Shown: piece after piece, positions 8,885 to 20,366 of the stretch | Layout of the letters: every line of letters begins with the position of its first letter | How positions within the stretch are numbered: position 1 is the first letter of the stretch | IMG/VR virus record: IMGVR_UViG_3300013132_000034 | Coordinates: 1 to 64,000 of that record | From: a virus | Length of the DNA: 64,000 nt | Direction: 5' to 3' (one strand) | The notes under the pieces: model-generated | Told to the model about the DNA's origin: nothing | The model's database searches: none | Seen by the model: the letters and a program-made list of their open reading frames with translations, nothing else | Position numbers and translations under genes: made by a program

Positions 8885-9538
8885 TTATAGAGGTATTATT
8901 CTTATTGCTACAAATGCTTCTGCATAATCTTCTTTAATTTCCCTACCTAAAATTTTAGCATTATCTATTATATTTTGTACTGATCTTGGGTGGTTGCTAT
9001 CTCTTATTTCTTGGGTGTAACACTGTAACGCATTTGCTTTAATTTTAATATGGCGTTCTTTTAAAGGTACAAAATAATTAGGCACGAAAGGTTGTATATT
9101 TTTTAGTATACCTTGATCTGTAGATGAGATTGTTTGATATAGAAAGATATTATCAACTCTATGTTTGCTCCAAATACGAGCTGCAGAGTTTAAAGCTTCA
9201 AACAATTTTCTATGATCTTGATGCAAATCGCCGTAAAAAGTAGAATATATTGTGTCCGGTTTTATTTCATAAATTAACTTTTCTAATTTATCAATTAAAT
9301 TATTATTAATATTGTGTAATTCTTGTTCATTTAAATTTAAAAACCTTAAACTATGTACACCGAGAATTTTAGAACTTTTAACTGCATCTCTTAATTGTAT
9401 TTTAGATCTTTCATCATACGAATTTCTTATTAATGCAACTGTTACTATATCACTACTTTCAATATGCTTGGCTATAGTAGCGCCGCACCCTAAAACTTCA
9501 TCATCCCCGTGAGGAGCCAGTACTAGAATTCTTCTCAT
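8885..9538 (-). CDS. PIG-L/LmbE-family deacetylase
   Basis: 217 residues. The N-terminus carries the family's zinc motif in the form APHGDDEVLG (H10, D13; usual form HPDDE), and a second motif GDLHQDHRKLF at 103-113 supplies the further Asp/His ligands. PIG-L/LmbE enzymes remove acetyl groups from N-acetylglucosamine-type sugars, leaving a free amine (GlcNAc-PI, mycothiol and bacillithiol pathways, teicoplanin tailoring). The start overlaps the GT31-like gene by 38 nt and closes an operon of sugar enzymes that includes an amidinotransferase, so its likely substrate is a phage glycan or nucleotide sugar. The exact substrate cannot be read from sequence. Length is normal for the family. Confidence 0.88.
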   Translation of the reverse strand: MRRILVLAPHGDDEVLGCGATIAKHIESSDIVTVALIRNSYDERSKIQLRDAVKSSKILGVHSLRFLNLNEQELHNINNNLIDKLEKLIYEIKPDTIYSTFYGDLHQDHRKLFEALNSAARIWSKHRVDNIFLYQTISSTDQGILKNIQPFVPNYFVPLKERHIKIKANALQCYTQEIRDSNHPRSVQNIIDNAKILGREIKEDYAEAFVAIRIIPL

Positions 9539-10286
9539 ATAATTTTAAAAATATGTCTCTCCTATTGTAGTCATTTTTAGCATAGTTAACTTGCAATATA
9601 TGTAATTTATCTAAAAATTCGGATTTACAATATATATCATTATATAAAGAATAATGAACGGGGTGTAATGAGAGCCCGTCTTTTGTTATATCCATATTAA
9701 GACTTTCAGAATATTGAGTATTTAAATCTAATTTTTTAAATTTTTTAGAAGCTAATAATTCTCCCATCAACACATCTTCACCTTTATAGCTGCCCGGGCA
9801 ATTTATAAAACTTTCTTCCGTTTGAGTAAGAATTTTTTTAACAGCTTTTTTTGAAATCATATAAAATCCACCCTCTGCATATTTTGATTTAGCAGGGCGT
9901 TTTGCTATTCTAAAATTTGATTTTACTTTGTAAAAATGTACTGTTTCAGAATTAATAATTTTATTAAATTTACCAATATAGTCGAATTTATAAAAATTTG
10001 CGTTTAATTTAGTATAATCAAAAAAAGTATCGTCATCTAATTTGATAACATGTGTATATTTTATATCTTGAATAGCTTTAAGAGCTAAAAACGTCTTAAG
10101 GGGCAATTGTTCATAGCATTCTTTAAAATTTCTAAGCTTTAGAAGGGGCACAGCGGGTATGAAATCTGACGTAACATAAAAATAAGAAATTTTTTGGTTT
10201 TGCAAAATTTTAGCCCAAGTATTTTCTATGGCTTGAATTCTTTTTAAATTTTTTTTACATGTTGTTATTAGAACTACAGGTTTCAT
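9501..10286 (-). CDS. GT31-like (fringe / beta-1,3-galactosyltransferase type) glycosyltransferase
   Basis: 261 residues with the fringe-type layout: an N-terminal VVLITTCKKNLKRIQAIENTWA strand-helix, a metal-binding triple-Asp HVIKLDDDTFF near residue 85, then KYAEGGFYMISKKAVKKI and a GEDVLMG motif, whose Glu-Asp pair is characteristic of GT31 enzymes. These transfer galactose, GlcNAc or similar sugars in beta-1,3 linkage from a UDP-sugar. No signal peptide or membrane anchor is seen, so the enzyme should act in the cytoplasm. It starts with an ATGA overlap with the amidinotransferase gene and its end overlaps the PIG-L gene, so the three are translationally coupled. Donor and acceptor are unknown. 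Confidence 0.8.
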   Translation of the reverse strand: MKPVVLITTCKKNLKRIQAIENTWAKILQNQKISYFYVTSDFIPAVPLLKLRNFKECYEQLPLKTFLALKAIQDIKYTHVIKLDDDTFFDYTKLNANFYKFDYIGKFNKIINSETVHFYKVKSNFRIAKRPAKSKYAEGGFYMISKKAVKKILTQTEESFINCPGSYKGEDVLMGELLASKKFKKLDLNTQYSESLNMDITKDGLSLHPVHYSLYNDIYCKSEFLDKLHILQVNYAKNDYNRRDIFLKLYEKNSSTGSSRG

Positions 10287-11371
10287 GAAAAATAATCAGT
10301 ATAATTACTTTGACGTCTTACATCTAACGTTAAGCAATGATGTCCTCCTCCAAATAATCTACTATATCTAATTTGATTGGGTATAACTTCTATATTATAA
10401 TCTTTTAACTTATTTTTTAAAACACTGTAATATTCTGGCAAACAAACAATACAATTTTGAGATATAGAAAGCACGTTACAAAATATTTTTTCTGATGCTA
10501 GAGGTGTATAGCTAGTAGGTGTTAATTCAGGTGAAATTTTTATAAAATCCCATTGCTGTAAAGGCTCTGGTAGCTGCTCAATAATATCTAAAGTAATTAG
10601 AGCTAACCCTGGTTTAAGAGGTAAAAAAACAGAATCTATATGATGATCAGTAATTTGTACTGGCCATACTTCATATTCTTTACCTAAATGTTGTTGCAAC
10701 CAAATAGCTCCAAGCTTTTCATGTTCTGTTGGAGCATTAAATAATATTTTATTACCTAGCCTCATGCAATTTGCAGAATCAAACATTATTTCAACGCCAC
10801 AATCTAATTCATGAGCAAATTTATTTTTTAAATTTTCATAATATTCTAAAGCTCCCTCACTTTTATATACTCTTGAAAAATCATATGAACTATCTGTTAC
10901 AAGTGGTCTTGGTGCAGCTGACCATTTTGCACCATTTTTAAAATATTCTAAAAATAAATGTTTTAAATAATCATTTTCGAATTGTCTCCATCTAGCAGAA
11001 ATAGGTGTTTCAATTATCTCGTTACCTACTATCATAGTAAGATCTCTTACATTTAATGCGGGGTAGTTTGTGCTCTTCCAACATAGTGTCTGTGTTTTTA
11101 CTACTTTATTAGGCACTTTAGGTCTTTTTACAATAATTCCCATATTTTTTAGTAAATTTACAAAATTTTCTAAATCTTCATTATGTTCACAAATTATTTT
11201 TTTATCATGTGCCCATCTATCAGAAAAATAGCTATTTCTAACCCCAAATATATTATCATGAAAAAACAATTTAAAAGTTAAATCATCTGTTGGCAAAGAT
11301 TCAGGAAAACCATTACCGACAATAACTTCTTCTAAATTATCCCACTCATTATGACTATTTACAGTATTCAT
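10283..11371 (-). CDS. AGAT/StrB1-like amidinotransferase
   Basis: 362 residues, the family's usual size. The catalytic triad of glycine amidinotransferase is visible: Asp198 in FDSANCMR, His244 in DHHIDS followed by LKPGLALI, and Cys346 in GGGHHCLTLDVRR. These residues form a covalent amidino-cysteine intermediate with arginine as donor. Relatives include vertebrate GATM (glycine acceptor) and StrB1 (inosamine phosphate acceptor in streptomycin synthesis). The gene overlaps its neighbours with ATGA junctions, between an unknown gene and a GT31-like gene, next to PIG-L. I infer that the acceptor is an amine on a sugar or aminocyclitol. Arginine hydrolysis (a deiminase) is an alternative for this fold, but the motifs fit a transferase better. 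Confidence 0.85.
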   Translation of the reverse strand: MNTVNSHNEWDNLEEVIVGNGFPESLPTDDLTFKLFFHDNIFGVRNSYFSDRWAHDKKIICEHNEDLENFVNLLKNMGIIVKRPKVPNKVVKTQTLCWKSTNYPALNVRDLTMIVGNEIIETPISARWRQFENDYLKHLFLEYFKNGAKWSAAPRPLVTDSSYDFSRVYKSEGALEYYENLKNKFAHELDCGVEIMFDSANCMRLGNKILFNAPTEHEKLGAIWLQQHLGKEYEVWPVQITDHHIDSVFLPLKPGLALITLDIIEQLPEPLQQWDFIKISPELTPTSYTPLASEKIFCNVLSISQNCIVCLPEYYSVLKNKLKDYNIEVIPNQIRYSRLFGGGHHCLTLDVRRQSNYTDYFS

Positions 11372-12096
11372 ATTTTAAAAAAAATATTATAACAATCATT
11401 TTGTTTATTTAAATCCCAGTAAACAGTATATTTCCTAGTATGTTTATAATTTCCGAAAAATTGTGGCGCTATATTACATTTTTTCTTGGTTTTGTTTATA
11501 TCGTCAACTATGTAAAAAGGTAGATTATGCATTATTCCTTTTATAGAGTCTTGTGGGTTTTTATATATTATAATAATCTTAGAAGGATTATGTGTATATT
11601 CTAAATATTTTACCAAACTTACATCTTCCTTTATATTGAAAAAGTCTAGGACTTTTTTAATATTTCTATCGTTTATATAATAGTATCTTCTAATTTGAGT
11701 TGCATCGTTATTAAATTCAACTGATACTGCTTTTTGGTAATTTATCAAGCTAGTTTTTTCGAGTATATCGTGTTCTTTAAAATTAAAAAATTTATTTAGT
11801 TTTATATGAAAATTATATACTATATTATTCATATTGTCAATTTTAATAGAAAAACAATTATTGTTACTTCTATCTAAATCTATAAATTTATAAAATTTTT
11901 CATATAATTCATAATTATGCGGGAAGGGATACTCTTCTTTTGATAATTTATGTAGAAATTGAAAATATGCTTTATTTGAAATAATGGCTTTGTTTTCGTA
12001 TGTCTTTCCTAAAAGTCCTAACCAATTATTAGTGTAGTGGTGTTTTTTATATAATGTATTATATAGCTCGTAAAGACTCTTAAAATCAGTAACCAT
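11368..12096 (-). CDS. Unknown protein in glycan operon
   Basis: 242 residues without a motif I recognise. It is rich in Lys, Asn and aromatic residues, with helical text in the N-terminal third (SLYELYNTLYKKHHY) and alternating strands later, ending VYWDLNKQNDCYNIFFKI. No signal peptide, membrane segment or DxD-type sugar-binding motif is clear. The start shares its A with the previous stop (TAATG) and the stop overlaps the amidinotransferase ATG (ATGA), so it is translated as part of the radical SAM-to-PIG-L operon and probably acts in the same pathway, perhaps as an accessory or transferase subunit. Confidence 0.6.
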   Translation of the reverse strand: MVTDFKSLYELYNTLYKKHHYTNNWLGLLGKTYENKAIISNKAYFQFLHKLSKEEYPFPHNYELYEKFYKFIDLDRSNNNCFSIKIDNMNNIVYNFHIKLNKFFNFKEHDILEKTSLINYQKAVSVEFNNDATQIRRYYYINDRNIKKVLDFFNIKEDVSLVKYLEYTHNPSKIIIIYKNPQDSIKGIMHNLPFYIVDDINKTKKKCNIAPQFFGNYKHTRKYTVYWDLNKQNDCYNIFFKI

Positions 12097-12887
12097 TAAA
12101 ATTCTTTAGATAAATTTAAATACTCTTTACTATATTTATTTTCATCGTATCCGCTAACAACTATAGGATCAACTTCAGCAAAAATATCATAAGCAATAAA
12201 ATTAGAAGGTAATTCTAATATTCTTAAAAGATTTTTATATTTCTTATATGCGTACGCAACCCAAAACGAGTCACCATACCATGCCACAGTAGAAAGTATA
12301 TTGTCAGATACCTCCTTAAAAAATAATTGAGACGAGGAGGTATTCCTGACTATCATACAACCTTCTCTAAAATGTAGATCTTGAGTTTCGAGATCTATTA
12401 ATTTATTATCAAAATTTTTAAAATTATTTCTTCTTTTTTCTAATTCTTTGCCCTCCAAAACGCCTTTATGTGCAAATTTTATAAACAAATCGTAATCTTT
12501 ATCTTTTATAGATTCAAAAAACGGCATCATGTTTTTTAAAATTAAATTATCTGCATCCATATTAATTACGTAATCAAAATTATATTTTTTTAGTAAATTG
12601 TATATATTATATACTTTGCGTAAATTGGCGTAAGCGCCTCTTATACTGACTTTTCTTTCTTTAACAATATGTGATGTTTTATTTTTAATAGTAATTTTTG
12701 TATCGTCTAAATTTGAGTTATTATATTCAACAAAAGTGTTTTTTAAATTTTTAAATTCAAAATTTGACACATCAATTAAGTCTACAAACGCGCTTACCTC
12801 AGGTGAATTAGTATTGAGCGATGCTATACTCTTTTGTACATATGGTATATAATTATTATCGACACTATATGATAGACAAATTCTCAT
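12096..12887 (-). CDS. GT-A-type glycosyltransferase (GT8-like)
   Basis: 263 residues from ATG at 12887 (MRICLSYSVDNNYIPYVQ), preferred over an upstream start because it forms an ATGA overlap with the radical SAM gene and starts directly with the first Rossmann strand. A DxD metal site lies in VINMDADNLIL near residue 110; later FREGCMIVRNTSSSQLFF and AWYGDSFWVAYA match the acceptor-side pattern of GT8 and related enzymes. It probably uses a nucleotide sugar with a divalent metal. No membrane segment is seen. It belongs to the coupled operon that continues to PIG-L. The precise family is uncertain. Confidence 0.7.
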   Translation of the reverse strand: MRICLSYSVDNNYIPYVQKSIASLNTNSPEVSAFVDLIDVSNFEFKNLKNTFVEYNNSNLDDTKITIKNKTSHIVKERKVSIRGAYANLRKVYNIYNLLKKYNFDYVINMDADNLILKNMMPFFESIKDKDYDLFIKFAHKGVLEGKELEKRRNNFKNFDNKLIDLETQDLHFREGCMIVRNTSSSQLFFKEVSDNILSTVAWYGDSFWVAYAYKKYKNLLRILELPSNFIAYDIFAEVDPIVVSGYDENKYSKEYLNLSKEF

Positions 12888-13711
12888 ATATTTTCTGCAA
12901 AAACACACTCCCTACATATACTGTTTACTGTTTCGTCGTTGAAACCTTTCAATATATTTTTATATATTTCTCCGGAATATAACTCATCATACGACATATT
13001 ATATAAATTACCCAAAACATGATGTTTTTCAACATCCATACAACATAAAACCACATCACCATCTGGCAATAGATGCTGAATTCTGTGGTGATCATGCTTA
13101 CATTTTATCTTTCCAGACAATTTTTTTGGAAGCAAGGGCGATTTGTAATGTATAGGGGTGTTTATTCTTTTAAAAGGTTCTGTATAATGAACTAAATCAG
13201 ACACATTATTTCTATTGAATAAGTCAACAATCTTGGTATCTACATTCTTAGTTAAAACCGTGACAGTATCTTTGTTTTCTGAACTTTTATTTTTTAATTG
13301 CTTTAAAAATTCATTTAAATGTTTAAGATAATCTTTCGAAATGTTTTTATAACTCATAAATTCATCTCTTATATGCACTGATCTGTTAAACCAATAAGAG
13401 CTATTTAAAAAAACCTCTATATTATTTGTATATTTTTCTGGCAAAGTAGTAAAGCAAACCAATTTATGACCTTTTTCATATGTATATTTTACTATAGACT
13501 CAAAGTCTCTATGCAGTAAAGGCTCACTCATACCTATAAACCCAATAATTGTACTGGATGGTATTTTATCAATTAAAATTTTATAGTTTTCTACTGATAG
13601 TCTTTTATTTTTACTCTTTAAAAATAATGAAAATTGTGGACAGTATGTACAGCTAACGCTACACCCTACGTAAAGGCTTATCTCCATCATTTTTTCACCG
13701 GGCTTTAGCAT
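12884..13711 (-). CDS. Radical SAM / SPASM-like enzyme
   Basis: 275 residues. The [4Fe-4S]-binding CxxxCxxC motif is C17, C21 and C24 in GCSVSCTYC; a GMSEPLLH segment near residue 60 is the GGE/GxExxL-like SAM-binding region. The C-terminus has a SPASM-like extra cluster region: CKH, LPDGDVVLCCMDVE, then GNLYNMSYDELYSGE and CRECVF. SPASM enzymes modify peptides (sactipeptides, quinohaemoproteins) or sugars and aminocyclitols (for example BtrN-type dehydrogenation). Here it starts 1 nt after a GT-A gene and overlaps the next GT gene by ATGA. A sugar or cyclitol substrate feeding the amidinotransferase is attractive, but a protein substrate is equally possible. Confidence 0.85.
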   Translation of the reverse strand: MLKPGEKMMEISLYVGCSVSCTYCPQFSLFLKSKNKRLSVENYKILIDKIPSSTIIGFIGMSEPLLHRDFESIVKYTYEKGHKLVCFTTLPEKYTNNIEVFLNSSYWFNRSVHIRDEFMSYKNISKDYLKHLNEFLKQLKNKSSENKDTVTVLTKNVDTKIVDLFNRNNVSDLVHYTEPFKRINTPIHYKSPLLPKKLSGKIKCKHDHHRIQHLLPDGDVVLCCMDVEKHHVLGNLYNMSYDELYSGEIYKNILKGFNDETVNSICRECVFAENI

Positions 13712-13712
13712 A

Positions 13713-14483
13713 CTACATACCTATACTATTTAATTTGTTAAAAAACTTGTTATTTTTTGTAGAATTTTTAATCAAATTTTTTTGCTTTCTAAAACCTTCT
13801 GCAGACCATATAAATGAATTATCACTATAGTTTGTATCAACAAAATTCTTGGGCAATTCTTTTATATTAATATTATTTTTAAAAATTTCATTAGTAAAAA
13901 ATTCTGTATGCCCCCACATAGTATCAAATATATTACATTTATCACTAATACTTGTAAATAATTTTTTAGTATTTTTATTATTTTTTATAAACATAAAATT
14001 AGTTTTATATCTTTTAGTGCCTACTTCATTCAAAAAACCATTATTATCAACATTAAAACTTTCAAGCAAAATATCATACTTATATGAATAAGGTATTAAA
14101 AAACTTAAAGATTTATTGCATAGGCTATCTGCATCTAAAAAAACTATATTATTAATTTGCAAATTCAATAATTTTTTTATAAAATAAAAACGTGCATTAT
14201 TACAATAACAATTTTTTTCAGAAACATACTCATAAGTATTAAAAAACTTTAAAAATTCATTATCAATAGTGTTTAATTTTTTGACTATATGTTTTTCTGT
14301 ACATAGTTTTTTGTTGTCAAAAAATATACTAATATGAGATGTTTGGTAGTTTAATAATTCACCGGGTTCACCTATAAAATATAGATAAAAATTAGCATTC
14401 TTGTTATTTGCTTTTATAGATTTAAAGCAAGGAATTACAAAATCTAAATACTCTTTATCAGAAACTGCAGCTATATTAAGCAT
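13713..14483 (-). CDS. GT-A-type glycosyltransferase (GT8-like)
   Basis: 256 residues beginning MLNIAAVSDKEYLDFVIPCFKSI, the usual first strand and helix of a GT-A fold. The metal-binding DxD is in NIVFLDADSLCNKSL near residue 118. Further on, TNFMFIKNNKNTKKLF and WGHTEFFTNEIF resemble the acceptor-side strand and helix of GT8-like enzymes, and ELPKNFVDT is a common late motif. It overlaps the preceding small gene by 8 nt and precedes the radical SAM gene by 1 nt. Donor and acceptor are unknown. Very AT-rich with many Asn and Lys codons, as in its neighbours. Confidence 0.68.
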   Translation of the reverse strand: MLNIAAVSDKEYLDFVIPCFKSIKANNKNANFYLYFIGEPGELLNYQTSHISIFFDNKKLCTEKHIVKKLNTIDNEFLKFFNTYEYVSEKNCYCNNARFYFIKKLLNLQINNIVFLDADSLCNKSLSFLIPYSYKYDILLESFNVDNNGFLNEVGTKRYKTNFMFIKNNKNTKKLFTSISDKCNIFDTMWGHTEFFTNEIFKNNINIKELPKNFVDTNYSDNSFIWSAEGFRKQKNLIKNSTKNNKFFNKLNSIGM

Positions 14484-14943
14484 TTTTTATCTTATCAAAA
14501 ATTTTTTCTAAATCTACAAAACATTTTTTGAATTTATTATTTTTAATAGTTAATTTACAATCATTTATAGAAAAAAATCTATTTAGATTAGTCAATGTAT
14601 ATTCGTAATTTTTTTTTGTAGCAAAATTCTTTGCAGAAGTTTTAAAAACTATTAAATTCCATACAGACGTAAAAAATGGGTGAGTTTCAATAAAAGACAT
14701 AGTTTTAATTAACGATTCATTGCATGTACTATCAATACAAATTAAACCACATGACCACTTTTTTTTGTCTGCAGTTAATCTAATAGGGTGATCAGCTTTT
14801 AAAAATTCTTCTCTAGTAACTAACCCATTCGAATGACTTAAAACATCAAAAGGAAAAAACCCAAAATGTTTTTTTATTTCATGTATATAATTAGAACCAT
14901 ATAGTTTTTTAACTTTTAACATGTAATCTAGTGCTGAAGGCAT
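14476..14943 (-). CDS. Unknown protein in glycan cluster
   Basis: 155 residues. The middle contains HPIRLTADKKKWSCGLICID and a helical segment around SLIKTMSFIETHPFF; the C-terminal third is Asn/Lys rich. No catalytic motif is recognised and it is too short for a full GT-A domain, though it might be a degenerate or accessory glycosyltransferase piece. It has its own late-type motif (TGTAAATA, 5 nt before ATG) that overlaps the stop of the GT32-like gene, so it may open the transcript that runs through the radical SAM, amidinotransferase and PIG-L genes. Confidence 0.55.
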   Translation of the reverse strand: MPSALDYMLKVKKLYGSNYIHEIKKHFGFFPFDVLSHSNGLVTREEFLKADHPIRLTADKKKWSCGLICIDSTCNESLIKTMSFIETHPFFTSVWNLIVFKTSAKNFATKKNYEYTLTNLNRFFSINDCKLTIKNNKFKKCFVDLEKIFDKIKNA

Positions 14944-14948
14944 TTAAT

Positions 14949-14956
14949 TATTTACA
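14949..14956 (-). promoter_or_regulatory. T4-late-type promoter motif opening the sugar-tailoring operon
   Basis: TGTAAATA on the minus strand, 5 nt before the ATG at 14943. It is the only good late motif seen between 17.7 and 8.9 kb. Confidence 0.5.
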
Positions 14957-15689
14957 TATTATATTTTTTTAAAATGCAATAATATAGTGATGCAAGGCGA
15001 GGGTTATTCCAATCTACTTTTAATTTACGATTCCAAATAGACGTGGTACAAGCAGTATTACACCAATGAATAGCGTATTTTGGTAAAGAATCTAATTCAT
15101 ACACATTACTATTGATCATTTTATATAAAAAATCTGCATTATCATCACCAAAAACTTCTTTGCTTACTATGTACTGATTGAAGTTGTATTTTATAACTGC
15201 ATTATTTAAAATTTCTAATGGCTTAACCCAGTTATCATTGTTGTGAGATATGTGTTTAGTGTATTCTGCAATCACATGATCAATAAAATCCACATTATTG
15301 CATTTAATTATATTTGCAACAACACCCTTCGAGTTGTGTGGTCTTAATATTATTTCTGTATTATTAAAATCATTGAATGATTTTAAACAAGTAACATCCA
15401 TATCTACGTACCATCCTTCTATTTTTTTAAGTAAATGAAATCTAAAAATATCGGAAAATCCACCTACGCTATTATTCGGGCAATCGCCAAAACCTTTATA
15501 TGTAAAAAAGTTTGATTTATCTAATATTTCGTTAGCATCTAATATAGTAAATTTACTATCTTTAAAATCTGTAATATTTTTATCATATGTAAATATATTA
15601 AATTCATGGTCATTAGATATAAAACTTTTTACAGTAAGTTCTTCTAACTTGTTTAATTTTTTTCCATAATAAAATGAATTAATTTTCAT
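14952..15689 (-). CDS. GT32-like glycosyltransferase (DxD, OCH1/capsular type)
   Basis: 245 residues with the Gly_transf_sug (GT32) signature: GGFSDIFRFHLLKKIEGWYVDMDV around residues 78-101, where the GG-x-SDxxR-x-x-LL and the D-x-D of YVDMDV bind the nucleotide sugar and metal. Later, AIHWCNTACTTSIW supplies the conserved C-terminal His-Trp region. GT32 enzymes add mannose, galactose or GlcNAc to glycans or proteins. The start overlaps the upstream GT8-like gene by 11 nt. No membrane segment. Length and motif order are complete, so it is probably active. Confidence 0.82.
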   Translation of the reverse strand: MKINSFYYGKKLNKLEELTVKSFISNDHEFNIFTYDKNITDFKDSKFTILDANEILDKSNFFTYKGFGDCPNNSVGGFSDIFRFHLLKKIEGWYVDMDVTCLKSFNDFNNTEIILRPHNSKGVVANIIKCNNVDFIDHVIAEYTKHISHNNDNWVKPLEILNNAVIKYNFNQYIVSKEVFGDDNADFLYKMINSNVYELDSLPKYAIHWCNTACTTSIWNRKLKVDWNNPRLASLYYCILKKYNM

Positions 15690-16443
15690 ATTTTTTATAT
15701 ATTTTGATCATTTTTTTAAGATTATATATGTTATTATTTTTAATAATATGCTCATCAAAGCAGTCTTCGATGCTAGATCCCATCCACGGTTTTTTAGATC
15801 CAACGTACTGTAAAATTTTAAAACTATTTTTATATAGTTCAAAATTATAACTAAGTACGTTATAAACTTTAGATAAAAAATAAATTTTATTTTCAAAAAA
15901 TAAATTTAGCACAGGCTCATCACTAGACCATTTTTTTATTTTTGATAATTCAATTAATTTATTTTTTGTATGATAAGTAAGATATTTTTCATTTATAAAC
16001 ATCAAGCCACCATCAAAAAATTGTTTTGAAGAATGATCTAAACGATTTTTTTCATCTACTTCTACAGCGGCAAAATCTACTGACAGGTTAAATAATTCGT
16101 CTAGAGGTGAATTTACAATCATATCTAAATCAAAAAACAATATATTCTTTGACTTTAATAAAAATATATCAAATCTGTTATAACAATTAAATCCCCAGTT
16201 TCTAAATTTATCATTAGTATTGTAATAACTGTAATCGTTCGATAATATATCGATAAATTTAATATTTTTATATATTAATAATAGATCATCTTTTTCTTTT
16301 GGTGTTAATGTTTCAAAAGTTAAAAAATTATATAAAAAATTTATATTTGGATTATAATATAGTAAGCTTTTTAAAAATGATTTTGCGCCTGGCAAATATT
16401 TTCTATTTAATGTTGATGCAAACTGCAAAGATTCATTAATCAT
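15679..16443 (-). CDS. GT8 glycosyltransferase (glycogenin-like)
   Basis: 254 residues. Family landmarks are in order: N-terminal SLQFASTLNRKYLPGAKSFLKSL, the DxD in NILFFDLDMIVNSPLDELF near residue 102, FFDGGLMFIN around residue 145, and a late ILQYVGSKKPW that matches the GT8 C-terminal substrate-binding motif. GT8 enzymes are retaining transferases that use UDP-glucose, UDP-galactose or relatives, and some glycosylate proteins directly, as glycogenin does. The gene overlaps the 430-aa gene by 8 nt and the GT32-like gene by 11 nt. Very AT-rich composition like its neighbours. Confidence 0.8.
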   Translation of the reverse strand: MINESLQFASTLNRKYLPGAKSFLKSLLYYNPNINFLYNFLTFETLTPKEKDDLLLIYKNIKFIDILSNDYSYYNTNDKFRNWGFNCYNRFDIFLLKSKNILFFDLDMIVNSPLDELFNLSVDFAAVEVDEKNRLDHSSKQFFDGGLMFINEKYLTYHTKNKLIELSKIKKWSSDEPVLNLFFENKIYFLSKVYNVLSYNFELYKNSFKILQYVGSKKPWMGSSIEDCFDEHIIKNNNIYNLKKMIKIYKKYEN

Positions 16444-17728
16444 TGTAGCTCAATACAAAGCTGGGTATAGGGTAGAGCATTACAGGCCAGTATTCTAAAA
16501 TTTCTGTTACCGTTAATTTGGTAGACAATTCAGTTCTAAACAATTCATTATCATCTTTTAATAATTTTATAATTTGTAATAGATCGTTTTTTTCATCATC
16601 ATCATTTGTATTGGAGATATCACTCTCTATTTCTTTTACTAAATTGTCACGATGTTCAATTATTTGTTTCACTCTTAATATTTTTATTTCGTTAAAATAA
16701 AACCTAGGTGTTGTAATAATATTAACTGCTTTTTCTTCTGAGAATTCTTTTATTAAAATCTTATATAAATTAATATCTTTTCTTGTAAAGAAAGGTTCAT
16801 TTATAAAAATTTCATTTGGTGGCACAATATTGAATGGCCAAAACTTATATACAATATACGGTGATGTTATATTTTCGAGTTCTTGTTTAAAATCACTACC
16901 TTCAAGTATATTAATTTGTTTATGAACTTGAGCTTTTACATCAGTTGCACTTACTAATTCATTAAGTTGTTCTTTATTATCTAAATTATTGAGATCATTT
17001 TTAAGTTTTGTAATTAGCTCTTCTTTAATCTTATTGAGATATAATATATACACATTTTTGAGTTCATTTAGAAATGATATGTCTTTTAATTTATCGCAAA
17101 ACTCACTGTAAGATGTTGCGTTAATTTGATAATTTAATGCTTTGAAGATACTTTGTACACTTGGCAGAAAGTCTAGGGTTTGATAGTTTTCAAGAAATGC
17201 TTGAGAGAGTTTTTGACTAAATGCAATAAAATGAACGAATCCTACAATATCATTTTCAGGAATATGAATATTTAGATTAATTAATTTTTGGTTTAAACTA
17301 AAAACAGCTTGACTTGGCTCATGCTTACCAAAATCATCTATATTAAAACTTTTAAACTCTTTAATTTTAGTAAAAAAAGCCTGCATACTATCAAAATATA
17401 AATTAAATGCATTTTCTCTAAATTCTTTAGATGCTTGTCTTGTGAATAGCCATGGCGGTACGAAGGAAACTGGTACACCTAGAAACATTGTTTGCCTAAT
17501 GGTTTCTGGATCTATTGACTCAAGCTTATTAGTCAATACATTGTAATATTGTGCTTGATTTTTCTTTGCAAACTCATCATAAGAGTCAAGTAATCTTTGG
17601 TTATATGGTACGCCCAAGCATTCTGCTATCTTCTTGTTACAAGTTGCCAAAACATAGGGCACAGAATTATTCTTAAAATTTATTAATAACAATGATGATT
17701 GTAAAATATTATCTACATCAGTATACAT
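16436..17728 (-). CDS. Unknown 430-aa helical protein
   Basis: No family is recognised. The N-terminus (MYTDVDNILQSSLLLINFKN) is followed by FLGVPVSFVPPWLFTRQASKEF, then a long Lys/Glu/Asn-rich helical middle with coiled-coil character (residues about 225-275), an ITSPYIVYKFWPFNIVPPNEIF stretch (about 285-308), and helical text to the C-terminus, which ends EILEYWPVMLYPIPSFVLSY. It lies between the receptor-binding fibre genes and the glycosyltransferase run, and overlaps the GT8-like gene by 8 nt. It could be a virion protein or a glycosylation accessory factor; the sequence does not decide. No late motif is seen before it. Confidence 0.6.
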   Translation of the reverse strand: MYTDVDNILQSSLLLINFKNNSVPYVLATCNKKIAECLGVPYNQRLLDSYDEFAKKNQAQYYNVLTNKLESIDPETIRQTMFLGVPVSFVPPWLFTRQASKEFRENAFNLYFDSMQAFFTKIKEFKSFNIDDFGKHEPSQAVFSLNQKLINLNIHIPENDIVGFVHFIAFSQKLSQAFLENYQTLDFLPSVQSIFKALNYQINATSYSEFCDKLKDISFLNELKNVYILYLNKIKEELITKLKNDLNNLDNKEQLNELVSATDVKAQVHKQINILEGSDFKQELENITSPYIVYKFWPFNIVPPNEIFINEPFFTRKDINLYKILIKEFSEEKAVNIITTPRFYFNEIKILRVKQIIEHRDNLVKEIESDISNTNDDDEKNDLLQIIKLLKDDNELFRTELSTKLTVTEILEYWPVMLYPIPSFVLSYND

Positions 17729-17757: not shown

Positions 17758-18405
17758 TCAAGGATAGCTACGGGTTCCGCCAATTCTAATTTCAGAACTT
17801 ACCATTTGCCCACCGCAAAACTTATCATCTACAACCCAACCAGTAAATACTGCACCATTATTAACAGTTGTGAGAGTATGATTAGATCCGTAGGGACCTG
17901 TCCATACATTAACAATACCAGATTGAGTACCTAAATTAAAACCAACATCTACAAAAATATAATAACCTGATCCCATACTTGAAGCAGGTGAACCACCACT
18001 AAAATTCATTACTATATTACCAGTAGAGTTTTTTGCACCTGTTGCTTGACCATTTGCAACACAAGCCGGGGGCGGTGAATAAGATTTTTGAAATTCAGAA
18101 ATACGGCTTGGTGAATATGGTGAGCCCGGGCCATTGTATTGCCAGGCTTTTGGTGATGTTGATGGTGAAAATGAGTTTATATTACCATTGTAATAAACTT
18201 CTTGTTGCTGCCACATGCATGTATTTGAATTAGTTACTATAACATTAGCGCCGCCTGTGACATTGTTGCCCATAAAACATTGTTCTAATGCAAATAAAGA
18301 TATATTTGAAGTACCGGGTACACCAGAAGCCCCAACACCACTTATCCAGTTTCTTATTTGTGAAATGGTTAATGTTGCGTTATTTGAAGTAGTAATAGCA
18401 GCCAT
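17758..18405 (-). CDS. Putative tail fibre tip / receptor-binding protein
   Basis: 215 residues, rich in Ser, Gly, Asn and Thr, with scattered Cys pairs. It starts AAITTSNNATLTISQIRNWI, a short helix common at the head of small phage fibre proteins, and ends with beta-type text (GWVVDDKFCGGQMVSSEIRIGG). The SPSTSPKAWQYNGPGSPYSPSRISEFQKSY centre is proline-rich. Its ATG overlaps the stop of the S74 fibre gene by one base, so the two are made together. A receptor-binding or fibre-tip role fits context and composition but no domain is recognised with certainty. Confidence 0.55.
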   Translation of the reverse strand: MAAITTSNNATLTISQIRNWISGVGASGVPGTSNISLFALEQCFMGNNVTGGANVIVTNSNTCMWQQQEVYYNGNINSFSPSTSPKAWQYNGPGSPYSPSRISEFQKSYSPPPACVANGQATGAKNSTGNIVMNFSGGSPASSMGSGYYIFVDVGFNLGTQSGIVNVWTGPYGSNHTLTTVNNGAVFTGWVVDDKFCGGQMVSSEIRIGGTRSYP

Positions 18406-20366
18406 TATTTTCTCTCCAACTTTTTATTTAAATCCTTTATGCATTCAATTAAAAGTGGTATAATTTTTTCATATCTAACTGCTTTGTATCCGTTGGTGCG
18501 TGTTTCTACTGCTTCAGGTAATATTTTTTCTACTTCTTGCGCTATAACACCTATATCATGGCCTTTATAATTTGAATCTTCGCTCCAATCAAACGAAACA
18601 CCATTAATTTTATCTATTTTTTCTAGTGGAGAATCAATATTTACTACATTTAACTTTAACCTTTCGTCAGAAGTATAATATGCAACGACGTCTCCACCAT
18701 TTGCATAAATGTTGCCTATTACTTCCAGATTACCATTAATTAAAGCACCTGCATTTGTGCCAATACCGGATGAAAAATAACCATTAGCTCTGACTTGAAA
18801 CGTTTCTGTACCATCTGTTCTATTTGGGCCTGTTGCATTATATCGAATAGAAAGAATTGTATCAGGTAAAGCGGTTGAAGAGGTTGTTCCAAGCACCATG
18901 GAAGGGCCGAAAGCAGAGCGGCCAATCAATTTTAATGCAGTTGGGCTAGAAACATCATCAGTAAAAATTTGAACTACGTGATCATTAGGTAAAGTTGTTG
19001 GATTAACTTTTCCTTTCGAAAAATAATGACCATTTACATTTGCATCAAAGAAATTAAAACCAGTTTTTGATATGATTTCACCATTCATATCAATATCAAC
19101 ACGGCCCCTATTACCGCCTTCAGCTGTTACCACATCACGAATTACTAATCCGCCTGCAATATGAATGGATGAGAGTGCACTTGTATTAGATGATGTTGGG
19201 GAGCCTCTACTTACGGAGCCAAACCCTCTACCAAAAGAGGCATTACAGTATCTATCAAAAATAATTCTATTAAAAGCAAAATTATCATTAAAGAATCTTG
19301 CTGTATTAAAATTGTCTTGTTGTTGAAATATTGTAACTGCATCTTGAGCTGTTTGATTAATAACAGAAAGCGCTGAAGTTACAGATACAAATGTTTCCAA
19401 CACTGTAAAATCGCCTAAAGCTGTGAGATTTCCAAGTACCAAACAATCATTATCAATCATTACACTGTTTGTAAATCTTGAAAAACCATCAACTCTTAAT
19501 GCGGGTTGTGAAGAGTTACCGCCTGTCTTTTGGAAGTAAGCAGTTCCGGAAGAAGTGAGTAAAAATGAGCTTGGATTGTTGTTGTCACTCTGTCCAGGAA
19601 AGAAATTAATACCACTTAAACCAAATAAATCTGAAGAGCCTGCAATATTACCAAAATTACCTTCTGTTTTAATAACAAAAATATCATTAGTAGGGCTATA
19701 AACTGTTAATGCCCCCTCATTTAACCCTGTTGTATTAATATTAATACGATAATCCAAGTCACATTTGAGATTGTTTTGCTTAATATCACCAAAATAAAAA
19801 ACACCATCGCGTTGAGATGGGTTAAAACCAGTATCTGATGTTATTGCCCAGTAGTTTGAATTTAATTCTGCAACCTTTATGGTGCCATAGAATGGCTCTG
19901 CTGTATTATAGTCAAACCAAAAAGCTTTGCGGTAATCATTAACTCCTATTACCTTTTTGCCAAAAACTGATTCAGAAATACGAACTTTACCGGTAGGCGA
20001 AGTTGTTTTTTCCAATACCAACTCTTCATATCTTGGGCCTATGTCAAATTTTCCAGATGCTAGTCCTGTCTCGTCTAAAGCATATAAAGTACTCTCATTA
20101 GTATCGTAAAAAGAATCACCAGGCTGAAAAAAACCTACTGGTAGTGAATTTATAACCGTATCTACATTTGGAAAGGCGCCTTGAAACAAGTTACCCGCAA
20201 CATTACCTCCCCCACCCAGCCCATCACCAATAAACAAACGCTTTGAATCTATTGTATACCCCAATTCACCTTCATCTAAGCGTATATTTTGGCGTTCCGA
20301 TTCAGTACCTCTCCGTACTAAAATCTTTAAAATAGTTGTATCGGTGATTTCAAATACGCCTGGCAT
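18405..20366 (-). CDS. Tail fibre with Mtd-N-like head and S74 intramolecular chaperone
   Basis: 653 residues. Near residue 12 the segment KILVRRGTESERQNIRLDEG, followed by FIGDGLGG, is the Mtd-N-like module that anchors many phage fibres. A long beta-rich shaft follows. The last 90 or so residues are a Peptidase S74 (endosialidase chaperone) domain: YYTSDERLK carries the catalytic Ser-Asp with nearby Lys, followed by GHDIGVIAQEVEKILPEAV. These domains fold the trimeric fibre and then cut themselves off before the serine, so the mature fibre should end near residue 565. CTTAAATA lies 5 nt before the ATG. It probably forms a receptor-binding fibre with the genes on either side. Confidence 0.85.
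   Translation of the reverse strand: MPGVFEITDTTILKILVRRGTESERQNIRLDEGELGYTIDSKRLFIGDGLGGGGNVAGNLFQGAFPNVDTVINSLPVGFFQPGDSFYDTNESTLYALDETGLASGKFDIGPRYEELVLEKTTSPTGKVRISESVFGKKVIGVNDYRKAFWFDYNTAEPFYGTIKVAELNSNYWAITSDTGFNPSQRDGVFYFGDIKQNNLKCDLDYRININTTGLNEGALTVYSPTNDIFVIKTEGNFGNIAGSSDLFGLSGINFFPGQSDNNNPSSFLLTSSGTAYFQKTGGNSSQPALRVDGFSRFTNSVMIDNDCLVLGNLTALGDFTVLETFVSVTSALSVINQTAQDAVTIFQQQDNFNTARFFNDNFAFNRIIFDRYCNASFGRGFGSVSRGSPTSSNTSALSSIHIAGGLVIRDVVTAEGGNRGRVDIDMNGEIISKTGFNFFDANVNGHYFSKGKVNPTTLPNDHVVQIFTDDVSSPTALKLIGRSAFGPSMVLGTTSSTALPDTILSIRYNATGPNRTDGTETFQVRANGYFSSGIGTNAGALINGNLEVIGNIYANGGDVVAYYTSDERLKLNVVNIDSPLEKIDKINGVSFDWSEDSNYKGHDIGVIAQEVEKILPEAVETRTNGYKAVRYEKIIPLLIECIKDLNKKLERK

Follow-up and report, generated by a model that had tools for sequence, protein, structure and literature searches.

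At positions 8885-11371 of the window, by which we mean the whole 64,000-nucleotide stretch analysed here, the ORF list places three minus-strand genes, encoding a PIG-L deacetylase, a GT31-like glycosyltransferase and an amidinotransferase (AT), which indeed overlap one another as the initial annotation had claimed: the GT31-like gene shares 38 nt with the PIG-L gene and 4 nt with the AT gene. The AT gene also shares 4 nt with the gene of a 242-aa protein (11368-12096), and the trio forms the terminal part of a bigger operon-like run on the same strand, 8885-17728, the rest of which encodes a radical SAM/SPASM enzyme, four further glycosyltransferases and the 242-aa protein, for which an ABBA fold is predicted. 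The features are as follows.

8885..9538, minus strand: PIG-L/LmbE-family deacetylase, 217 aa (PF02585 1.7e-19)
9501..10286, minus strand: GT31-like (Galactosyl_T/Fringe) glycosyltransferase, 261 aa, DDD motif KLDDDTFF (PF01762 1e-8)
10283..11371, minus strand: StrB1/AGAT-superfamily amidinotransferase, 362 aa, triad D198/H244/C346 (PDB 1bwd StrB1 8.7e-47)
11368..12096, minus strand: 242-aa protein, predicted ABBA/PT-barrel (prenyltransferase-like) fold (AF2 and Foldseek)
12096..12908, minus strand: GT8-like glycosyltransferase, kept in relatives (weak Pfam match, Glyco_transf_8 E 1e-3, under cut-off)
12884..13711, minus strand: radical SAM/SPASM enzyme, 275 aa, CX3CX2C (C17, C21, C24) and C-terminal cluster cysteines (PF04055 6.4e-7, PF13186 6.1e-10)
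13713..14483, minus strand: GT8-family glycosyltransferase (PF01501 1.8e-5)
14476..14943, minus strand: 155-aa protein without Pfam or PHROG match, homologue in relative locus L004
14952..15689, minus strand: GT32-like (Gly_transf_sug) glycosyltransferase (PF04488 1.3e-6)
15679..16443, minus strand: GT8-family glycosyltransferase (PF01501 2.6e-17)
16436..17728, minus strand: 430-aa protein without Pfam match, recurring in such islands (11 of the first 89 loci have a homologue)
18405..20366, minus strand: tail-fibre/spike protein, Mtd_N N-terminus and S74 intramolecular chaperone (PF13884 1.8e-16, PF18454 3.8e-8)

The island adjoins tail-fibre genes; the tail-fibre/spike gene at its border is given as context and stands outside the pathway proposed below. 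Tail-fibre homologues were also found upstream of the AT island in the relatives L004, L005, L019, L021, L022 and L025. The window record is a T4-like phage, and its island lies in the host-recognition (tail-fibre) region. For T4-like phages, host recognition clusters containing GT8 and radical SAM genes are on record, as excerpted from the report on pelagimyophages and cyanomyophages (PMC7029224), and the island matches such a cluster, being likewise a variable island beside tail fibres. The authors suggest, in the same excerpts, modification of the host O-chain, whereas an amidinotransferase or PIG-L pathway is not among the features that these excerpts describe.

The amidinotransferase and its ancestry

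A sequence search of the PDB gave StrB1 as the best match of AT (1bwd, 8.7e-47), followed by SxtG, HsvA and human AGAT, and the AT profile matched StrB1 1bwd at 6.2e-97. AT also matched PHROG 25854 (5e-37), with zero matches in Pfam or NCBIfam. The AF2 model (pLDDT 82) retrieved 1bwd as its best Foldseek hit (E 1.6e-28, TM 0.78) and AGAT 1jdw at 5e-26, and the fold it predicts is a pentein of the StrB1/AGAT type. D198, H244 and C346 aligned with the catalytic triad and were invariant across 18 phage relatives, which upholds the earlier description of an AGAT-like enzyme with an intact triad; AT is a member of the StrB1/AGAT amidinotransferase superfamily. Annotations of related phages label the AT homologue glycine amidinotransferase.

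With StrB1, the streptomycin inosamine-phosphate amidinotransferase, the phage AT has in common the fold and the Asp-His-Cys triad, and in its phage relatives AT is linked to aminotransferases of the StrS family, a linkage also seen in streptomycin clusters. However, it is 33% identical to StrB1, belongs to a phage glycan island, and falls in a clade which the tree placed as a separate deep branch, outside StrB1 and other cellular groups; the sister of StrB1 was a second viral AT clade, and the window AT clade did not group with StrB1. The Arg equivalent to AGAT R322 is missing in the window AT, while it is retained in StrB1 and in the second viral clade. The AGAT glycine-site residues N300 and M302 of the 300-flap, the roles of which have been described (PMC4887976), are replaced by T241 and H243, although their absence is not decisive against glycine, because CyrA uses glycine without both.

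More than 550 AT-matching stretches were found in IMG/VR. A single-protein AT search of genome contigs gave zero cellular relatives; the AT profile search of genome contigs gave cellular relatives at 31-43%, the nearest being from Deltaproteobacteria/Bdellovibrionota and archaeal MAGs, and some of these cellular loci had radical SAM or DegT genes nearby (ORF calling was poor in the GC-rich bacterial loci). Some marine phage ATs adjoin unrelated, non-sugar genes, therefore phage ATs are not all of one function.

Enzymes accompanying the amidinotransferase

The PIG-L protein, sole copy in the window record, scored 71 bits against PF02585 (cut-off 28.2), its nearest PDB entries were the LmbE-related 2ixd (5.2e-10) and diacetylchitobiose deacetylases, and its metal and catalytic motifs HxDD (H10, D12, D13) and HxxH (H106, H109) were intact in the alignment. 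Profile and motifs place it in the PIG-L/LmbE deacetylase family, with a putative role in sugar N-deacetylation. The GT31-like enzyme, carrying LDDDTFF in its translation, scored 35.6 bits against PF01762, over the curated cut-off of 23. Matches of the strength seen for the three proteins lie well outside what chance would give.

Co-occurrence was counted over non-redundant loci found by an AT-only search, and PIG-L was present in all of the evaluable loci of the window AT clade (19/19), a count taken within one clade whose members are not phylogenetically independent. The single locus without PIG-L (L257), not among the evaluable ones, is cut off within the aminotransferase lying ahead of PIG-L. 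Whole records of relatives (41-230 kb) held a single PIG-L copy, within the AT island, in 10/10 cases. The gene orders seen were AT-GT31-PIGL, PIGL-rSAM-U242-AT, PIGL-DegT-RmlD-AT, PIGL-DegT-AT and AT...DegT-RmlD-epimerase-PIGL, which implies that the linkage of AT and PIG-L has been kept through rearrangement. The pairing of AT with GT31 was restricted to phages of the window, L004/L005 and L006-L009 types. Conservation of the neighbours had been set beforehand as a point on which the proposal could fall, and it came out divided: PIG-L always accompanies AT in the window AT clade, while GT31, present only in the nearest relatives of the window phage, was rejected as a conserved partner, so that the three genes do not make up one conserved operon. 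PIG-L was also seen in similar islands without AT (L178-L190) and therefore need not feed AT; the flow of substrate from PIG-L to AT is one that we infer. In the second viral AT clade a DegT gene adjoins AT, and PIG-L is lacking.

Most relatives in the wider AT clade add a short StrS-type (DegT) sugar aminotransferase and epimerases. This aminotransferase (PF01041 1e-15 to 1e-24, with invariant D93 and K117), nearest to perosamine synthetase and scyllo-inositol transaminase, is found with AT in each of the two viral AT clades, as well as in cyanophage S-SCSM2R, and RmlD/epimerase (nucleotide-sugar) enzymes immediately precede AT in several relatives. A DegT-family gene was not found in the window subclade, including its 217 and 230 kb records, and the window record yielded neither a recognisable aminotransferase nor a nucleotide-sugar epimerase, so that its sugar precursor must be host-supplied. 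For the radical SAM enzyme, the nearest PDB entry to the profile of the window-type subfamily was BtrN, a weak match (1.5e-5), and for the radical SAM profiles BtrN was the best match, ahead of peptide maturases; together with the CX3CX2C motif and the C-terminal auxiliary-cluster domain this weakly suggests BtrN-type features.

One of five AF2 models of the 242-aa protein was confident (pLDDT 88, against 62-75 in the others). It has ten strands in an (alpha)-beta-beta pattern, and the top Foldseek hits were PirF (5.8e-6), the arginine bis-prenyltransferase DciF (1.2e-5), LimF and KgpF, at a TM of about 0.53. Conserved residues are K42xY44, H97xK99, K/R136xY138xY140, K173, Y217 and Y226. There was no sequence match in Pfam, NCBIfam, PHROGs or the PDB sequence search, and the viral fold search gave nil below E 1e-3. 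By prediction the protein would share the ABBA barrel with the cyanobactin/arginine prenyltransferases PirF, DciF and AutF, although it is shorter and has no detectable sequence similarity to them; AutF prenylates guanidinium groups (PMC9609003).

A possible guanidino-sugar pathway and its alternatives

The guanidino sugars known so far come chiefly from aminoglycoside antibiotics, the enzymes of which include the radical SAM dehydrogenase BtrN, the aminotransferases BtrS and StsC and the PIG-L deacetylases BtrD and NeoL. A BtrN-like radical SAM enzyme, DegT/StrS, PIG-L, glycosyltransferases and a StrB1-type AT co-occur in the phages, a likeness that holds at family/profile level. Unlike the aminoglycoside set, the phage aminotransferase is a short form that lacks the C-terminal portion usually present, a cyclitol synthase was not seen in the phages, and the product is likely a surface or virion glycan. 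This aminoglycoside-like parts list supports an amino-sugar acceptor for AT. The same is favoured by the best matches: StrB1 for AT and BtrN for the radical SAM enzyme, each of them an aminocyclitol enzyme.

The sequence itself shows the enzyme families, the intact catalytic residues, the gene overlaps, where the island lies and that PIG-L obligately accompanies the window AT clade, and the acceptor, order of steps, product and target are what we infer. We propose, with modest confidence, that the StrB1-like AT of this glycan-tailoring island amidinates a sugar amine to give a guanidino sugar, with PIG-L and the glycosyltransferases as partners; the phage enzymes probably build a positively charged, guanidine-bearing sugar decorating the virus or the host surface. 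In the window phage and those closest to it, PIG-L is the sole amine-making enzyme recognised; it would free the amino group of an N-acetyl sugar, and AT would transfer the amidino group of arginine to the sugar-borne amine (of a nucleotide sugar, glycan or aminocyclitol), so that the resulting guanidino sugar would carry a positive charge. Across most of the wider clade, the short StrS-type aminotransferase and epimerases may offer another way of installing the amine, and oxidation of a sugar hydroxyl, as by BtrN, may fall to the radical SAM enzyme. The glycosyltransferases would attach the guanidino sugar to a cytoplasmic acceptor, most likely the neighbouring tail-fibre protein and less likely a host surface glycan. 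The initial annotation had put forward deacetylation followed by amidination; its amino-sugar acceptor gains from the StrS-type aminotransferase, the epimerases and the StrB1 and BtrN matches, while the exact route from PIG-L to AT loses ground to the islands with PIG-L and without AT and to a second possible amine source in most relatives. We give little credence to an extended scheme in which T4-like phages have an aminoglycoside-style pathway, running from radical SAM oxidation through transamination or deacetylation by PIG-L to amidino transfer from arginine and glycosyl transfer, and in which, in the window subclade, the guanidino group of the sugar made on the tail fibres is also prenylated by the ABBA-fold protein.

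It is possible, though rather unlikely, that PIG-L and AT act independently, each on a different residue of one glycan, the amine for AT coming from a phage or host aminotransferase and PIG-L deacetylating another sugar, in which case a guanidino sugar would still be made. PIG-L does adjoin GT8c in many islands with DegT and without AT (L178-L188), the second viral AT clade does with an adjacent DegT and no PIG-L, and DegT occurs in most of the window's wider clade; but the window subclade, its 217 and 230 kb records included, lacks a DegT-family gene and always has PIG-L. Moreover, the dependence is one-sided: window-clade AT never occurs without PIG-L, but PIG-L often lacks an accompanying AT, the pattern to be expected of an AT that works downstream of PIG-L. 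That StrB1 came ahead of AGAT in every comparison, that N300 and M302 of AGAT are not retained, and that AT has translational overlap and conserved sugar partners make it improbable that AT produces a small guanidino metabolite (guanidinoacetate, homoarginine or agmatine-like) for auxiliary metabolism with the sugar genes as bystanders, even though its superfamily includes glycine, lysine and polyamine enzymes and marine phage ATs lie beside non-sugar genes.

We likewise doubt that the radical SAM/SPASM enzyme, the ABBA-like protein and AT (on ornithine or lysine) form a RiPP-like set modifying side chains of the fibre or of a small peptide. Radical SAM/SPASM maturases are frequently peptide-directed, and the 242-aa protein is closest in fold to cyanobactin peptide prenyltransferases, among them one directed at arginine; however, the radical SAM enzyme is nearer BtrN than peptide maturases, and the conserved set is mainly a sugar aminotransferase, epimerases, PIG-L and numerous glycosyltransferases. 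No precursor-like ORF was seen: a conserved CxxC ORF of 59-70 aa was rejected as RiPP precursor, as it is conserved over its full length and lacks a variable core. To our knowledge GT8, GT31 and GT32 enzymes do not act as DNA glucosyltransferases. Modification of phage DNA bases, to a glycosylated or guanidinylated nucleobase, has precedent in phages whose DNA is hypermodified with sugars and with amidino groups (archaeosine) (PMC6884629), but is highly improbable here and was rejected, since the thymidylate synthase/dCMP hydroxymethylase family is absent from the window record and from 9/10 related records (217 and 230 kb included); the island, moreover, lies in the tail-fibre region.

If our proposal of a guanidino sugar is true, surface decoration, whether of the virion or phage-directed, would gain a new class, one that puts a strong and fixed positive charge where host recognition is decided. 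Many phage glycan-island genes, given the IMG/VR stretches counted above, would become testable chemistry and would supply novel amidinotransferases and short sugar aminotransferases, perhaps prenyltransferases as well. The earlier statement that no such phage pathway is described holds for the open-licence PMC literature, in which we found neither a guanidino-sugar nor an aminoglycoside-like phage pathway, with the qualification that a module of AT and radical SAM was already described in 2010: the Campylobacter phages CP220 and CPt10 carry an interchangeable module of a radical SAM enzyme and a putative glycine amidinotransferase, for which no guanidino sugar was proposed (PMC2853527). Its AT is 24-33% identical to the window AT and the Campylobacter PIG-L lies about 70 kb away, but the association of AT with radical SAM and nucleotide-sugar transferase-like genes in the CP220 module resembles the window island.

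The amidinotransferase and its operon-like run

The window lies in a 97,367-bp virus record with a T4-like portal. PIG-L deacetylase, GT31-like and amidinotransferase (AT) genes had been noted in it as overlapping; this was confirmed, on the minus strand, with overlaps of 38 nt (PIG-L/GT31-like) and 4 nt (GT31-like/AT). They form the terminal part of an operon-like run beginning at 17728, which also carries genes for a 242-aa protein, GT8-like, radical SAM/SPASM, GT8, 155-aa, GT32-like, GT8 and 430-aa proteins; tail-fibre genes (Mtd_N and S74 domains) lie past 17758.

Features of the window (L, loci of related phages or cells)
8885-9538, minus: PIG-L
9501-10286, minus: GT31-like transferase
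10283-11371, minus: AT
11368-12096, minus: 242-aa protein, overlapping AT by 4 nt; also in L002, L004-L009, L190, L192
8662-8856 and 8334-8669, minus: 59-70 aa CxxC ORF and ~110-aa hydrophobic protein; also in L004, L006, L175, L181-L193

AT gave no match in Pfam or NCBIfam. Its top PDB match was StrB1 (8.7e-47), the streptomycin inosamine-phosphate amidinotransferase, followed by SxtG, HsvA and human glycine amidinotransferase (AGAT), and a profile from 18 phage relatives ranked PDB entries identically, StrB1 first. The StrB1 structure (1bwd) was also the best structural match (E 1.6e-28, TM 0.78) of the AlphaFold model (pLDDT 82), and the catalytic triad positions D198, H244 and C346 were invariant among aligned phage relatives. 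A tree of 83 sequences placed the window AT in a well supported viral clade (n=13), separate from the StrB1 group and other cellular ATs, with a second viral clade (n=25) as sister to the StrB1 group; identity to StrB1 was up to 48% in the second clade as against 33% for the window AT. Residues N300 and M302 of the AGAT flap, which matter for AGAT substrates (PMC4887976, PMC3684758), correspond to T241 and H243, and the position of AGAT R322 holds Arg in the second viral clade, as it does in StrB1, and a different residue in the window clade. The window AT is thus a genuine amidinotransferase-family enzyme of its own subgroup, with StrB1 nearest in type; its acceptor is beyond what sequence alone can tell.

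One phage island carries a tandem pair of AT genes (L019:8893-11119). A separate marine phage group comprises L062, L082 and the related L063, L068, L076, L078 and L092; the L062 AT adjoins a MoxR-like AAA ATPase, a DUF2201 metallopeptidase/VWA protein and a calcineurin-type phosphoesterase, and because of such neighbours the ATs of phages probably do not all serve a single role. The closest cellular ATs (35-43%; L095-L102) come from Deltaproteobacteria/Bdellovibrionota and Woese-/Pacearchaeota MAGs, some with radical SAM or DegT adjacent; such loci may make guanidino sugars for the cell or, alternatively, belong to proviruses.

Retention of PIG-L with AT

Searching with AT alone, and only for this clade, yielded 24 non-redundant loci, of which 20 belong to it (at least 51% to the AT of phage locus L022). 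PIG-L lay within 10 kb of AT in 19 of these 20; at the exception, L257, the contig breaks off within an aminotransferase gene, the one found ahead of PIG-L in its relatives. It was absent at all 4 distant loci. Each of 10 whole records (41-230 kb) had exactly one PIG-L, located in the AT island.

Gene orders around AT
AT-GT31-PIGL: window, L004
PIGL-rSAM (radical SAM)-U242 (242-aa protein)-AT: L006
PIG-L 4 kb off, opposite strand: L002
PIGL-DegT-RmlD-AT: L026-L028
PIGL-DegT-AT: L262
AT...DegT-RmlD-epimerase-PIGL: L019, L021, L022, L025

PIG-L thus holds up as a conserved neighbour of AT through varied layouts, and such retention despite rearrangement is better evidence than plain synteny, although the phages compared are kin. 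GT31, proposed as a further partner, did not show comparable co-retention across AT loci. Starting from PIG-L, AT was present in 27 of the best 80 phage loci, and elsewhere (e.g. L178-L188) PIG-L occurs with GT8/GT32, often with DegT, and without AT. Dependence as read from gene content is therefore one-sided: AT of the window clade is always with PIG-L, and PIG-L is independent of AT. This is compatible with AT acting downstream of PIG-L, and matches just as well an island in which PIG-L is a widespread tailoring step.

After PIG-L, the closest syntenic relatives, L004 (10495-13363) and the similarly arranged L005, encode a 2OG oxygenase of the PhyH type and a member of the tryptophan-halogenase family (PF04820, 6.7e-82 in L004); the window has neither. 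In many islands, whether or not AT is present, PIG-L is followed by the conserved CxxC ORF and the hydrophobic protein.

Sugar-chemistry context and probable target of decoration

Most relatives encode a short DegT/DnrJ/EryC1/StrS aminotransferase (PF01041, 195-242 aa; L019-L028, L030, L033-L048, L075-L094, L014:6293-6880). By profile it resembles perosamine synthetase and glutamine-scyllo-inositol transaminase. The usual C-terminal part of the family is missing; an invariant Asp (D93) and Lys (K117) are kept, as one would expect of a PLP enzyme. In both viral clades DegT is found with AT, and the two genes frequently overlap (L037, L038, L084, L093); it also accompanies AT in cultured Synechococcus phage S-SCSM2R, and is flanked by RmlD/epimerase genes. 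No DegT gene was found in the window's own subclade, 217 and 230 kb records included, where PIG-L is consequently the sole recognised amine source. For both island radical SAM subfamilies the nearest solved structure, at profile level, was BtrN (1.5e-5 and 2e-9), an aminocyclitol dehydrogenase of butirosin synthesis. With radical SAM, StrS-type aminotransferase, PIG-L, glycosyltransferases and StrB1-type AT combined, the islands read like an aminoglycoside toolkit, in which BtrD/NeoL and BtrS are the counterparts of PIG-L and the aminotransferase.

The guanidino-sugar interpretation of the initial annotation survives in part. It gains plausibility when widened to an aminoglycoside-like pathway, encoded in host-recognition islands, that would yield a guanidino sugar; in this form PIG-L is the invariant AT partner in the clade and GT31 is incidental, and acceptor and product are putative. 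We found no proposal of a guanidino sugar for phages in the open-access literature; an exchangeable module with radical SAM genes and a 'putative glycine amidinotransferase' was described in Campylobacter phages in 2010 (PMC2853527).

L004, L005, L019, L021, L022 and L025 carry homologues of the window tail-fibre gene just ahead of the AT island, on its upstream side, and we favour the fibres encoded next door as the target of decoration; decoration of the host surface instead is less likely, and DNA modification as the island's role is unlikely. In T4-like pelagimyophages a 'host recognition cluster' unites tail-fibre genes with those for GT8 transferases and radical SAM enzymes, and its proposed role is O-chain modification (PMC7029224).

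The 242-aa neighbour of AT

The 242-aa protein had no sequence-family matches. Its best AlphaFold model (pLDDT 88; the remaining four 62-75) has five beta-hairpins with helices in between, and ABBA prenyltransferases took the first 31 places among its Foldseek matches, with PirF and the arginine bis-prenyltransferase DciF at the top; the best matches are cyanobactin prenyltransferases, one of them arginine-directed. The model predicts a phage-encoded ABBA/PT-barrel prenyltransferase fold. Conserved Lys/Tyr residues at alternating strand positions (K42xY44, K/R136xY138xY140, K173, Y217, Y226) are reminiscent of the fold's diphosphate-binding and tyrosine-shield residues. Since AutF-type enzymes prenylate guanidinium (PMC9609003), one may speculate that the 242-aa protein prenylates the guanidino product.
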